64,000 nt of DNA from Caulobacter rhizosphaerae. GTDB lineage: Bacteria > Pseudomonadota > Alphaproteobacteria > Caulobacterales > Caulobacteraceae. Positions 25,740 to 40,099 of the stretch are shown piece after piece; position 1 is the stretch's first letter, and every line of letters begins with the position of its first letter. A program made the position numbers and the translations under genes. The stretch covers positions 3,588,501 to 3,652,500 of the forward strand of contig NZ_CP048815.1 in the NCBI RefSeq assembly GCF_010977555.1. Reading direction: 5' to 3'. Below the pieces are notes generated by a model. It worked only from the letters and a program-made list of their open reading frames with translations, did not search any database and was not told the origin of the DNA.

Positions 25740-26357
25740 TCACCGGATCGACACCGTGGCGGCGCTTTCCCCCATCGGCGTCACCTGGATCACCCCGCCC
25801 CGTCCATAGATGACGGCCGAGACGTCGTCGTCATTCCTCTTACAGCTGAACTTGTCGTCGCCGATCGCCCGGGCTTTTCGCCAGGACTCCGTGCAGGCCT
25901 CGACCTGGTCGTCCTCCAGCACGGTGTTCTCATGGCATAGGCACACGACCTGATCGCAGGTCTCCCCCTTCCCCGCGGGCGCGCACAGGTAGGTCGCGAC
26001 CGCGCCGCGCCCCTCGACCAGGCGAAGACGGGCGACGCGCATTTTCTTGTCGGACGCGGCGATCGGCAGTTCGCCGGGCTTGTCGCCGGCCAGACCCGAG
26101 CCGGGCTGACCCGAAATCTCGACGGTCTTCTTCAGCAGCTTCGGCGCGAACGGCCGTGACAGCTTGCCCAGGAGCTCGGCCATAGGGGGCGGCCCCCAGG
26201 TTTCGAGCGCGTCCTCGTCGATCTCGCCGTTGCTCGTCGTCGGCGGTCCGTGCGCCGCCGGGGGCGCGGGCGGCGTGGTCGCACGATAGACGGCGACGCC
26301 GATCGCCACGACGAAGCCGATCACGACCAGGACCAGGATGATGATGGCGGCCTTCAT
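25740..26357 (-). CDS. Membrane-anchored cysteine-containing protein, last gene of the CIS operon
   Basis: A 205-residue protein with one N-terminal membrane helix (about 4-27, IIILVLVVIGFVVAIGVAVY), then a Pro/Ala-rich linker and a soluble domain. The C-terminal half carries a Cys cluster (CAPAGKGETC, VCLCHEN, EACTES, FSCKR) that could form disulfides or bind metal. The polarity suggests an extracytoplasmic soluble domain. No family is recognised. It follows the HExxH membrane protein by nine bases and ends the 14-gene injection-system operon. A role in that apparatus is inferred from position only. Confidence 0.7.
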   Translation of the reverse strand: MKAAIIILVLVVIGFVVAIGVAVYRATTPPAPPAAHGPPTTSNGEIDEDALETWGPPPMAELLGKLSRPFAPKLLKKTVEISGQPGSGLAGDKPGELPIAASDKKMRVARLRLVEGRGAVATYLCAPAGKGETCDQVVCLCHENTVLEDDQVEACTESWRKARAIGDDKFSCKRNDDDVSAVIYGRGGVIQVTPMGESAATVSIR

Positions 26358-26366
26358 CGACGCGGC

Positions 26367-27344
26367 TCAGCCATAGCCGGCCACTAGGATCGCCACGAAG
26401 GCCGCGCCGAGACCCACCACCCCGACCGCCGAAAGGACGATGGCCAGGGGCCAGGGCCAGCAGACCCAGCCGGTCACTGTTCCACCGCCGCTCATGAACA
26501 CCTGTCCCGTCCGATCCGAGGGGTTGGCGATGCCGTAGGCCATCACCTCCCAAGGATTGTCGAAATAGGTCCACCAGGTGATGGCGTCGCCGATCCGGCG
26601 ACCGGAATCGATCAGGCCGGCGATCAGAGCGGGGATGATGGTCAGCGCCATCCAGCCCACATACGAGAACCAGAAGAACGGTCCCAGCACCCGGTTCTGC
26701 CAGATGTGGATCGTTTCGTGCTTGAATAGGTCGGAGGTCGGCGTCCAAGTGTCGGTGTTGCTCATCACCGCGCCCTGGGTGAAGGCGAAGCCCGAGCGAA
26801 CGGCGAAGCCTTTCACATAGCGGTGGGCGTCGTGGCGGTTCTCGGTCGGGCCGTCGCCATGGTCGCCCCAGGCGAAATTGATCAGGTGCATCAGCACGCC
26901 GTTGGTGTTGCCGCCCAACCCCCAGGTGACGTCGAGCAGGAACGCCGGAACGCCCAGCCCCGCCCACTTGTGGGTGGCCCAGAGGCCGTCAAACAGACCC
27001 ACCAGCCCCCCGACGACCAGAGCGATCCACAGCAGGGCCTCGACGCCGATCACGGGATGGCCGAACCCCAGCGAGACGAGGTTCACCACGCCCGGCCAGA
27101 TGAAGAACAGCAGGCTGGTCACCGTCACGGCCGCGTCGGAGTCGCCCCCGACGCTCAGCATGATGCTGATGAAGGTTCGCGCCAGGAAGGCCCCGAACGT
27201 CGCGGTCAGGAAGGTCTCAAGCGCTCGCCAGAGCGACGCGGCGCCGTCGCCCTTCGCCAGCCGGACGATCAGGGCCAGCACCGCCCCCAGGACGCCGAAA
27301 GCCAGCGACCCGAGGATGGCCTCCAGAGAGAAAATCCGCTCCAT
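26367..27344 (-). CDS. Polytopic membrane protein with HExxH motif
   Basis: A 325-residue protein with about four hydrophobic segments before residue 125, a soluble stretch (about 125-225), and two or more spans after it. The soluble stretch contains HETIH (residues 209-213) followed by WQNR, the zinc-peptidase HExxH signature. An upstream His/Asp/Asn-rich patch (GDHGDGPTENRHDAH) could add metal ligands. A later Glu in WEVMAYGIAN is a candidate third ligand of gluzincin type. I do not recognise the family, so peptidase activity is a hypothesis. The gene lies in the injection-system operon between the PASTA proteins and the Cys protein, where a membrane protease might process or open the envelope. 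Confidence 0.7.
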   Translation of the reverse strand: MERIFSLEAILGSLAFGVLGAVLALIVRLAKGDGAASLWRALETFLTATFGAFLARTFISIMLSVGGDSDAAVTVTSLLFFIWPGVVNLVSLGFGHPVIGVEALLWIALVVGGLVGLFDGLWATHKWAGLGVPAFLLDVTWGLGGNTNGVLMHLINFAWGDHGDGPTENRHDAHRYVKGFAVRSGFAFTQGAVMSNTDTWTPTSDLFKHETIHIWQNRVLGPFFWFSYVGWMALTIIPALIAGLIDSGRRIGDAITWWTYFDNPWEVMAYGIANPSDRTGQVFMSGGGTVTGWVCWPWPLAIVLSAVGVVGLGAAFVAILVAGYG

Positions 27345-27396
27345 ATCTCAGTCTCCTTGCAGCCCGCCAAGCCGGCAGGCCTGTTCGAGGTGGAGT

Positions 27397-38164: not shown

Positions 38165-38190
38165 GACGGATCCTCTTCAAGGTTTGGGGG

Positions 38191-39414
38191 TCAGGCGGTC
38201 TCGACGGTGGATCCGACCGCCGTCTGGCCGATGCGGAAGATGACGAACTCGGCGGGCTTCACCGGCGCGATGCCGATGACCACCACCACCTGGCCGGCGT
38301 CGACCACCTCGGGCGGGTTGGTCTCGGCGTCGCACTTGACGAAGAAGGCGTCCTCGGGCCGCGCTCCCGCCAGGGCGCCCTGCCGCCAGAGCAAGGTCAG
38401 GAAGGCGCCGACATCGCGCTGGATGTCCTTCCACAGCGGACCGGCGTTGGGCTCGAACACCACCCAGCGGGTGCTGATGGCGATCGATTCCTCGATCATG
38501 TTGAACAGCCGCCGGACGTTCAGGTAGCGCCAGTTGCTGGCGCTGGGCGCCAGGGTCCGGGCGCCCCAGACGCGAACGCCTTCGCGGGTGAAGAAGCGGA
38601 TGCAGTTGACGCCGACCGGGTTGAGCACGTCCTGCTCGGCCCGCGACAGCATCTGGGTGAGCCCCTCGACGCCGCGGATCGTGACATTGGCCGGAGCCTT
38701 GTGCACCCCGCGCTCGCTGTCGGTGCGGGCATAGATGCCGGCCATGTGGCCCGAAGGCGGGATCTGGGCCAGGCTGTCCGGATCGACAGCGTCGCGGCCC
38801 CGAAGCCAGGGGAAGTAGCAGGCGCCGTAGCCGCCGTCGGAATCCCGGGGGCGCAGGCCCGGCTTGGGGCCCCGTCCGCGCGGCGCAGCCGGGGCCGCAT
38901 CGCCCTCGACGGCGGGCGTCGGGGATGGAGCCGCGCTCCCGTCGGCCGCGCGGGTCAGCACCTCGACATCGTCGACGCGAGGCGGGGCGTCCAGGATCGC
39001 CACGCGATCCTTCAGCGACTCCGCCGCATCGAGCAAGGCCCCGTGCGAGGCCGGGTCCGTGCGACCGGGGGCGGCAATGATGGCGATCTCATCGATCGCC
39101 GCCAGGGCGTCCAGCCCCCGCCCCTTGCCAGCGATCGCCCCGTCGGCCTTGGTGTTGACGACATAGCAGCGGGAGCCGCCGTTCAGGAAGAAGCCGTAGA
39201 CGGCGTTGGCCAGGTCGGTGCCCTTGTCGCCGTCGCGCACGTAACGTCGCCTGAACTCGCTCCAATTGTTGATCGCCACCGCCTCGTCGATGAAGGCGTC
39301 GGGATTCGGCGCGGTCCCGACGAAGCCGGCCGTCGATGTTCCCACCGCCTCGATCGGGCGAGTTCCAGAGTCGATCTCCTCGACGTAGACGCCGGGGCTC
39401 AAATAGGACGGCAT
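38191..39414 (-). CDS. Contractile tail sheath protein
   Basis: A 407-residue sheath protein. The N-terminus SPGVYVEEIDSGTRPIEAV is the classic sheath opening. The middle has NNWSEFRRRYV, AVYGFFLNGGSRCYVVNTK and a variable Pro/Ala/Asp-rich insertion (about 165-200). The C-terminal conserved domain contains KAPANVTIRGVEGL, NPVGVNCIRFFTREGVRVWGARTL, YLNVRRLFNMIEESIAISTRWVVFEPN and the final beta-strand region used for sheath handshaking. Contraction of this protein supplies the force for injection. Only one sheath gene is present. The start follows the preceding stop by one base, with its GGAG site inside that gene's end. Confidence 0.95.
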   Translation of the reverse strand: MPSYLSPGVYVEEIDSGTRPIEAVGTSTAGFVGTAPNPDAFIDEAVAINNWSEFRRRYVRDGDKGTDLANAVYGFFLNGGSRCYVVNTKADGAIAGKGRGLDALAAIDEIAIIAAPGRTDPASHGALLDAAESLKDRVAILDAPPRVDDVEVLTRAADGSAAPSPTPAVEGDAAPAAPRGRGPKPGLRPRDSDGGYGACYFPWLRGRDAVDPDSLAQIPPSGHMAGIYARTDSERGVHKAPANVTIRGVEGLTQMLSRAEQDVLNPVGVNCIRFFTREGVRVWGARTLAPSASNWRYLNVRRLFNMIEESIAISTRWVVFEPNAGPLWKDIQRDVGAFLTLLWRQGALAGARPEDAFFVKCDAETNPPEVVDAGQVVVVIGIAPVKPAEFVIFRIGQTAVGSTVETA

Positions 39415-39415
39415 G

Positions 39416-40099
39416 TCAAATCTCCAGCGGTAGACGAAGGATCACGGGGCTGCCGGTCTCGACCTCGCGGTCGATCTCGATCCCGCGGGCGCGAACATTG
39501 AGGCGTATCGGCGCGCCCTTGCCGCCGACCGGTCCGTGAAGGCGAAAGCGGCCGAACGCATCGGTCTGGGCGGTGCGATCCACGCCCTCGACGCGCACCA
39601 CGGCGCCGGCGACCGGCGTGTCGTCGGGTCCCAGGACCGAGCCCTGGAGCAGGCCAAGCTCGCCGGAGTCGATCCGGAGCGGAAAGCGAACCAGGGCGGC
39701 CCGGGCGACGGCCCGCCGCCGCGCGATCGAGACCGTGGCCCGCAGCACGAAACCGGGCCCCGGCGGCAGGTCCAAGTCGGCGCAGAGCTTCAGCGCGTCG
39801 CGGTCCAGCGCCACCTCGGCCTCATCGTGCTCCATGGCCGCGAACATCAAGGCGATGACGCCGGTCTGTTCGATGATGGGATCGGCGGCGCGCACCGTGA
39901 CCAAATAGTCGGCGGTCAGGGTCAGCGGCGGCGCAGCCGCACGGGGCGTTGCCTGGGGGGCCAGGCCGATCAGGCGGAGGTCGACCCCTTCACCGCAATC
40001 GCGATCGCTGAGGGACCGGGCCACCACGGCTCGCCCCGGCAAGACCGCCTGGGTCCAGCCGATCAGATCCCGCGTCGTTTCCTCCAGCCCCTCGGTCAT
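39416..40099 (-). CDS. Pvc16-like tail cap/terminator with carboxypeptidase-regulatory-like domain
   Basis: A 227-residue protein, first gene of the operon. The N-terminal two-thirds fit the DUF4255/Pvc16 cap family (TQAVLPGRAVVARSLSD, a LTADYLVTVRAADPIIEQTGVIALMFAAMEHDE core). The C-terminal third is a small beta domain of carboxypeptidase-regulatory/SdrD type (LLQGSVLGPDDTPVAGAVVRVEG ... TDAFGRFRLHG). In Photorhabdus-type particles Pvc16 forms the cap ending the tube and sheath. The fusion to a beta sandwich is a known variation in such loci but its role here is unknown. Confidence 0.82.
   Translation of the reverse strand: MTEGLEETTRDLIGWTQAVLPGRAVVARSLSDRDCGEGVDLRLIGLAPQATPRAAAPPLTLTADYLVTVRAADPIIEQTGVIALMFAAMEHDEAEVALDRDALKLCADLDLPPGPGFVLRATVSIARRRAVARAALVRFPLRIDSGELGLLQGSVLGPDDTPVAGAVVRVEGVDRTAQTDAFGRFRLHGPVGGKGAPIRLNVRARGIEIDREVETGSPVILRLPLEI

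Follow-up and report, generated by a model that had tools for sequence, protein, structure and literature searches.

How contractile injection systems (CIS) outside the type VI secretion system (T6SS) attach to membranes and decide when to fire is an open question, to which CisA of Streptomyces coelicolor, the thylakoid CIS of Anabaena and a putative haloarchaeal anchor give separate answers. The question is raised again by a stretch of 64,000 nucleotides from Caulobacter rhizosphaerae (NZ_CP048815.1, positions 3,588,501 to 3,652,500), here called the window, in a genome of 5.96 Mb on two contigs. It carries a minus-strand operon of 14 genes (40099 to 25740, intergenic gaps of -13 to 61 bp), which the original prediction, made from the sequence alone, had described as an alphaproteobacterial, cell-attached CIS with one sheath and four added membrane proteins but no AAA+ ATPase or fibres. 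All 14 genes were found in place on one strand. We asked what particle the operon encodes, and how it might be held at the envelope.

Sheath, tube, spike, gp25 and a J/gpI baseplate lie together in this operon, which is the gene set of a CIS (Table 1). Profiles backed the part names first given to the sheath, tube, CIS_tube adaptor, spike, gp25 and J; gpI scored below its cut-off, the cap is probable and the tip is named by position, and the LysM label of the adaptor, judged by eye, matched no LysM profile. PF04984 had one match in the genome (E 0.001), as expected for a single sheath gene, unlike the several of the Photorhabdus virulence cassettes (PVC) and the Serratia antifeeding prophage (Afp). 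Fibre (Cis13) and tape measure (Cis14), standard parts of PVC and Afp, had no profile match among the operon proteins in Pfam, PHROG or NCBIfam, in line with the claimed lack of fibres, proteins that diverge fast. Pfam likewise found no TssJLM, TssK or ClpV among the operon proteins, the rest of the genome not having been searched for these. The best solved match of the sheath was 8bky/9gtp (1.3e-102), 9gtp being the S. coelicolor CIS, which was also the best solved match of J; gpI matched 9gtp chain E (190 aa) weakly (E 0.045). Together with the membrane docking discussed below, we think it reasonably probable that the locus is a minimal CIS related to the Streptomyces-type cytoplasmic systems.

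The proteins that set this operon apart are those of the membrane. All four encoded downstream of gpI have predicted transmembrane (TM) helices, as first described, and they belong to the conserved part of the system; the original prediction, right about the 14 genes, had stopped short of TM233, the most specific membrane gene, which is convergent with them. PASTA proteins 1 and 2, which are 66% identical over residues 1-219, lie directly after gpI; each has one TM helix (at about 134-152 in PASTA protein 1) with a positive N-flank and is predicted to be bitopic with the N terminus inside and the C terminus outside. The Ig-like domain of PASTA protein 1 just passes its profile (PF11614, 25.8 bits against a cut-off of 25.6), and the PASTA repeats are similar to those found in PknB-type kinases. 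Between the Caulobacter loci, the cytosolic part of this protein is 86-96% identical, against 42-71% for the periplasmic part, a pattern that would support docking at the cytosolic side. A Bryobacterales locus encodes a second Ig-like/TM paralogue in which a ricin-type lectin (PF14200, 2.4e-32) replaces PASTA (L017 9159-10133, minus strand; L041 7899-8873 is this gene again), which hints that different outer domains can be exchanged on a shared docking part in the cytosol. The small anchored protein is 37% identical in the alphaproteobacterium G940 and has counterparts at the equivalent place in Rhodovulum, Paracoccus, Deinococcus and Bryobacterales, where the alignment is weak.

We then compared the locus with its relatives. 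The 14 genes and TM233 recur, in the same order, in five Caulobacter loci (L012-L016, one of them from a metagenome-assembled genome), although in L013 the match to the Pro-rich protein is confined to its first 193 residues. The system is not the alphaproteobacterial variant first envisaged: besides G940, the lineage includes the Acidobacteriota genome G573, a Bryobacterales genome with a full-length J relative (42%), gpI, a PASTA protein, the small anchored protein and a convergent TM233, and plasmids of Rhodovulum sulfidophilum, Rhodovulum sp. MB263, Paracoccus sp. MC1862 and Deinococcus sp. AJ005. We examined 13 loci (the window, L012-L016, G940, G205, G573 and L097-L100, leaving out a second R. 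sulfidophilum record); those of G940 and G205 were each pieced together from two contigs, and that of G573 from two adjoining stretches. A PASTA protein follows gpI in 13/13 loci, directly in 12 and with TM325 intervening in Deinococcus; PASTA was confirmed by Pfam in the window, G940, G205, G573 and the four plasmids, and by BLAST in L012-L016. TM233 was found in all 13, convergent at the end of the block in 11, at its front in Paracoccus, and in G573 on the same strand, next to the tip gene and some 17 kb away from J. That both proteins are present throughout, despite these shifts in the position and orientation of TM233, supports membrane docking. TM325 was seen in eight of the 13 loci (six Caulobacter, G940 and Deinococcus). 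Next to TM233 and the tip gene on the G573 contig (C27:222000-239999, L074) are genes for a sigma-54 activator and for a membrane protein with a Cache domain, which might regulate the system.

TM233 also tracks the lineage across whole genomes. Among 385 genomes of the class it occurs in two, G000 (the genome of the window) and G940, exactly those with a close sheath (100% and 77%); 20 of the 385 have a sheath match, and the other 18 have neither a close sheath nor TM233. Among 396 Acidobacteriota genomes it occurs in two, exactly the two with a full-length J out of 13 that match J. In a mixed set of 25 genome handles it was present in 9/9 lineage handles (seven distinct genomes) and 0/16 with another J. 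A crude linkage test by shared contig sizes of at least 8 kb, using the best 120 of 633 TM233, the best 120 of 7998 sheath and all 84 TM325 proteins, linked TM233 and sheath 8 times, TM325 and TM233 10 times, and TM325 and sheath 8 times, with jittered means below 0.1.

Purifying selection was evident throughout. In comparisons of the window with L012, L013 and L016, dN/dS was below 1 for all 15 genes, at 0.01-0.03 for the inner tube, 0.03-0.13 for the sheath, 0.05-0.10 for J, 0.07-0.11 for TM233 and 0.05-0.14 for TM325; selection on TM233 and TM325 is as strong as on the sheath. Values were higher for PASTA protein 1 (0.32-0.38), PASTA protein 2 (0.20-0.27), the small anchored protein (0.30-0.71) and the Pro-rich protein, which evolves fast (0.53-0.57). 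Kept order and dN/dS below 1 show that the system is real and under selection, as a block beyond chance. A contig filed as viral, L077 (IMGVR_UViG_3300048921_000535), encodes the lineage sheath (73%), tube, adaptor, spike, tip, gp25 and J, so at least one member of this CIS lineage looks misclassified as a virus. One could read that filing in IMG/VR, and the tail-derived genes themselves, as signs of a decaying prophage tail or a domesticated remnant without present function, but the genes are intact, sheath, J, TM233 and TM325 remain at 0.03-0.14, the order is conserved across phyla, and the flanking proteins scanned include no capsid or terminase. We consider such a remnant very improbable.

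We next searched for the loading ATPase with a 673-aa Pvc15-type protein (AAA plus winged helix) from an Acidobacteriota CIS cluster, run on 41 genome handles. In the whole host genome its sole match (6.5e-12) was a 667-aa frame about 1.24 Mb outside the window, which we take to be FtsH; no Pvc15-type ATPase was thus found genome-wide, and Pfam showed no capsid or terminase domain in the operon genes and 14 flanking proteins, the rest of the genome not having been scanned for capsids. The lineage set comprised nine distinct genomes (11 handles; G146/G200 and G136/G203 have identical coordinates), seven of which gave nothing better than 6e-18 anywhere, presumably FtsH and other AAA proteins. 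The other two have strong matches away from this system: G203 (Caulobacter sp. UNC279MFTsu5.1) about 5 kb from a second sheath on a different contig, and G573 twice, each 5-8 kb from another sheath. By comparison, 24 of 30 other genomes had a match of 1.9e-36 or better, and in 20 of the 30 the ATPase lay within 25 kb of a sheath or J on the same contig (Fisher p for adjacency about 4e-4, with related genomes treated as independent); the 30 included 14 of the 18 non-lineage genomes of the class with a sheath match (all except G766, G862, G858 and G928). Both control records (Deinococcus actinosclerus and Streptomyces clavuligerus) have an ATPase, and at E 1e-6 it was found in 0/4 lineage plasmid records, a count that covers the plasmids and not the host chromosomes. 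The lack of the ATPase and the presence of the membrane module are real and lineage-wide.

These data bear on the reading of the locus as an ordinary extracellular CIS (eCIS) or tailocin, with a fibre and an ATPase that escaped recognition or lie at other loci, and with membrane genes that serve as regulators or in release or immunity. Fibres do diverge fast and are often missed, as a partial text of PMC12923769 notes, and six of the 30 other genomes also had no strong ATPase match. However, a strong match in 24 of those genomes against none in seven of nine lineage genomes, with the remaining two carrying theirs only on contigs with another sheath, and the occurrence of a PASTA protein together with TM233 at all the lineage loci examined, make this reading quite improbable.

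The eCIS_core domain (DUF4157, PF13699) was searched in 24 genomes (nine lineage, 15 of the 30 others) and was present in 12 of the 15. At E 0.01 there was none in G000, G200, G201, G202, G205 or G940; G204 had one weak match with stops, and the matches in G203 and G573 lay off the contig of this system. A second sheath locus in G203 (contig C41, L076) has its own Pvc15-type ATPase and eCIS_core protein and offers a within-strain comparison.

TM325 may nevertheless be related to eCIS_core. In an alignment of 70 sequences, H209, E210, H213 and E266 are invariant (HExxH plus a third ligand), the AlphaFold2 (AF2) model has a pLDDT of 95.8, and the protein shares an AFTxG...HExxH..Q pattern with eCIS_core. 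Eight of the 70 homologues matched PF13699 below threshold (best 0.039), none exceeding its curated score, and profile-profile comparison with hhalign gave P 2.2e-5 and a probability of 76%. TM325 is predicted to be a membrane metalloprotease in which, unlike in eCIS_core itself, the eCIS_core-like part lies within a polytopic membrane protein.

TM233 has the predicted TM fold of cation diffusion facilitators (CDF), such as YiiP and ZnT, and has no sequence match in the Protein Data Bank (PDB). Its invariant residues include the charged E26, D57 and K148 in predicted membrane helices. As a CDF transporter it fits in part: the membrane fold agrees, but none of 48 members matched Cation_efflux (E 0.1), the cytosolic CDF domain is missing, and the fifth TM helix (residues 166-187) has no invariant His or Asp, the residues of the metal site by which CDF transporters are defined.

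To explain these features, we favour, with some confidence, a minimal CIS whose baseplate is docked to the inner membrane from the cytoplasmic side by a membrane module of its own. In excerpts of PMC12237407 and PMC10066040, the S. coelicolor CIS is a cytoplasmic particle that depends on a membrane adaptor, CisA, which is bitopic (N-in/C-out), encoded just downstream of the baseplate genes and required for function. In haloarchaea, according to parts of PMC11566945, the contact-dependent mode of CIS is correlated with a conserved putative anchor of six TM helices, Hbor_38620. Given the match to CisA in place and topology and this correlation, we propose that the baseplate docks through the PASTA receptor and TM233. 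The cytosolic Ig-like domain would bind gpI or the C-terminal extension of J, the periplasmic PASTA repeats would hold or sense peptidoglycan, TM233 would be an obligatory partner and the small anchored protein an accessory, and in a subset of loci TM325, with its membrane-embedded HExxH, might act on the module as a protease or checkpoint. As to the direction and outcome of firing, the particle would probably puncture an envelope, its own or a neighbour's, or carry the tip or Pro-rich protein; puncture seems the likeliest output because there is no loading ATPase and no recognised eCIS_core cargo. A bolder version, which we regard as doubtful, is that this envelope wiring evolved independently, a cell-wall-sensing PASTA receptor and a transporter-fold subunit (E26, D57, K148) docking the baseplate and gating its firing, possibly by a change in ions or proton-motive force, with a membrane-embedded eCIS_core-type protease as checkpoint and neither loading ATPase nor soluble cargo.

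Since the nearest solved relative is cytoplasmic and adaptor-dependent, docking when triggered is as likely as permanent tethering. It is quite possible, if short of probable, that the system is a cytoplasmic, self-directed CIS for cell death or lysis, as in Streptomyces, which the PASTA receptor recruits to the membrane only on cell-wall damage, killing the producer. The S. coelicolor matches of sheath, J and, weakly, gpI, the failure to find a fibre or loading ATPase, and the PknB-like repeats all agree with this temporal variant of docking, but the adaptor domains are unlike those of CisA, and in single-celled hosts, with carriage on plasmids, altruistic death is less obvious. We judge it unlikely that the system is a T6SS-like weapon that is held stably in the inner membrane and fires outward into neighbours on contact, as in haloarchaea. 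TM233 would suit it, being a lineage-specific polytopic protein like the haloarchaeal six-TM putative anchor, but the genome has no over-threshold eCIS_core cargo, no effector-immunity pair was recognised among the operon genes, and the Gram-negative envelope would have to be crossed without a known trans-envelope complex. The docking model puts forward membrane-tethered particles as a hypothesis, and sequence alone does not decide between permanent tethering and recruitment under stress.

Table 1. Genes of the CIS locus in the window
Feature	Positions	Strand	Evidence
Cap-like protein, probable Cis16, 227 aa	39416..40099	-	C-terminal CarboxypepD_reg, PF13620 9.9e-8
Single contractile sheath, Cis2, 407 aa	38191..39414	-	PF04984 2.6e-16, PF17482 1.3e-17
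Inner tube, Cis1, 156 aa	37694..38164	-	PF06841 2.6e-32
Pro/Arg/Ser-rich protein, probably disordered, 523 aa	36119..37690	-	Between tube and adaptor
Tube-initiator/LysM adaptor, Cis7, 258 aa	35355..36131	-	PF19266 (CIS_tube) 1.2e-8
Spike/hub, Cis8, VgrG-like, 504 aa	33844..35358	-	PF04717 1e-19, PF05954 8.4e-15
PAAR-like tip candidate, Cis10 position, 116 aa	33497..33847	-	Position and conservation
gp25-like sheath initiator, Cis9, 145 aa	33057..33494	-	PF04965 1.1e-25
Baseplate J, Cis11, 843 aa	30526..33057	-	PF04865 2.2e-20; TIGR02243 4.2e-71
Baseplate gpI-like, Cis12, 191 aa	29948..30523	-	TIGR02242 3.5e-9, below its cut-off
PASTA protein 1, 462 aa	28535..29923	-	PF03793 1e-31; N-terminal Ig-like, one TM, PASTA repeats
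PASTA protein 2, 358 aa	27397..28473	-	One PASTA, PF03793 6.4e-10; paralogue of PASTA protein 1
TM325, polytopic, invariant HExxH...E, eCIS_core-like	26367..27344	-	70-sequence alignment
Small N-terminally anchored protein, 205 aa	25740..26357	-	N-terminal TM 5-23
TM233, polytopic, CDF-like TM fold (predicted)	25038..25739	+	Convergent, abuts last operon gene

Several particle genes deserve comment. The first operon gene is probably the cap, a label that rests on position and on CarboxypepD_reg, its only recognised domain; its homologues start the block in Acidobacteriota and Deinococcus, with shorter versions in Rhodovulum and Paracoccus. The Pro-rich protein, which matched nothing in Pfam or PHROG, is a candidate length regulator or lumen cargo. 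Pro/Ala-rich proteins of 417 aa (Rhodovulum) and 334 aa (Paracoccus) occupy the equivalent position, and G573 has no space for such a gene. The adaptor has weak PHROG tail matches at 209-254, and the spike start was set at a GTG overlapping the adaptor stop. The tip candidate had no Pfam, PHROG or NCBIfam match, and its homologues are 42-58% identical in other genera and phyla. The C-terminal extension of J carries a loose Asp-box pattern in 12/12 lineage sequences against 0/5 control J; by the strict pattern seven of the 12, which leave out the J of G940, have two motifs, four have one and Paracoccus has none.

The operon is flanked by chromosomal genes (MlaA, MlaC, histidine kinases and methyltransferases in a Pfam scan). 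A Ceramidase-like membrane protein (40595-41431, minus strand; PF05875, below cut-off) adjoins the cap gene, and a Ceramidase-family protein also lies near the Bryobacterales system (L017 6699-9133), its gene overlapping that of a peptidoglycan-binding protein. Farther away, a single protein of 723 aa that combines DinB_2, FGE-sulfatase and histidine-specific methyltransferase domains (4426-6597, minus strand) looks like a fused EgtB-EgtD ergothioneine enzyme, and very large hybrid histidine kinases cluster at 7203-20377 (minus strand), one of them with 1580 aa and multiple PAS domains and another with 1944 aa, nine HAMP stretches and two receiver domains.

Together, these data reveal a dedicated membrane module that accompanies one CIS lineage in several phyla and on plasmids, and its recurrence in very distant bacteria suggests that such needles are attached to the envelope in a little-known way. 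The locus may also link the enigmatic eCIS_core domain with a membrane protein, and a tail-derived machine with a CDF-type membrane fold. Because the module occurs in genetically tractable Caulobacter, docking, triggering and ATPase-free function are directly testable. Among the papers that our searches brought up, we recognised none on this lineage, on a PASTA protein in a CIS or on a CIS of Caulobacter or Rhodovulum: PASTA, Caulobacter and Acidobacteria had no match in the main text of Geller 2021, and the Caulobacter mentions in partial texts of PMC9230969, PMC10959553 and PMC10286715 concern phage Cr30, the soil family Caulobacteraceae and one reference. The loci may be listed in the tables of Chen 2019 or Geller 2021. 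In section 5 of a 2025 survey (PMC12210884), exclusion rules are built on Cis6, Cis13, Cis14 and Cis15, and the fate of a system without all four is unsettled by those rules alone; fibre-less loci are outside the scope of a 2026 fibre catalogue, as a portion of it describes (PMC12923769).

Compared with known systems, the locus shares homologues of the sheath, tube, spike, gp25, J and adaptor with the eCIS of Photorhabdus and Serratia, but it has one sheath where these have several (Pvc2-4, Afp2-4), and in PVC the Pvc15 ATPase is needed for payload, as stated in part of PMC11495950. Like the thylakoid CIS of Anabaena, a membrane-anchored non-T6SS system in sections of PMC8894136, it would be held at a membrane; the same sections attribute anchoring in Anabaena to a Cis12 extension and to a fibre-like Cis13 that has a TM helix itself, whereas in Caulobacter gpI stops at 191 aa and the membrane parts are proteins of their own. 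In the T6SS-like CIS of haloarchaea the mode of action correlates with a conserved multi-TM protein. In the available part of PMC11566945, however, that anchor has a cytoplasmic domain of about 150 residues, unlike TM233, no PASTA protein appears, and the cluster is said to lack homologues of plug, tape measure and crown only, which implies that it has an ATPase. The closest parallel is the S. coelicolor CIS, the best solved match for the sheath and J and, weakly, for gpI, which has no typical fibre or tape measure, parts that were not recognised in the Caulobacter operon either; a relative in S. clavuligerus has its ATPase about 15 kb from J, unlike the Caulobacter locus. Both systems place a bitopic adaptor right after the baseplate genes, with a cytosolic N terminus and an extracytoplasmic C terminus (a predicted topology in Caulobacter), and the PASTA proteins would thus be analogues of CisA. 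By description the two adaptors are set apart, CisA having a disordered N terminus and a solute-binding-like domain and the Caulobacter protein Ig-like and PASTA domains, and to this shared plan the Caulobacter locus adds the polytopic TM233 and a J with an Asp-box extension.

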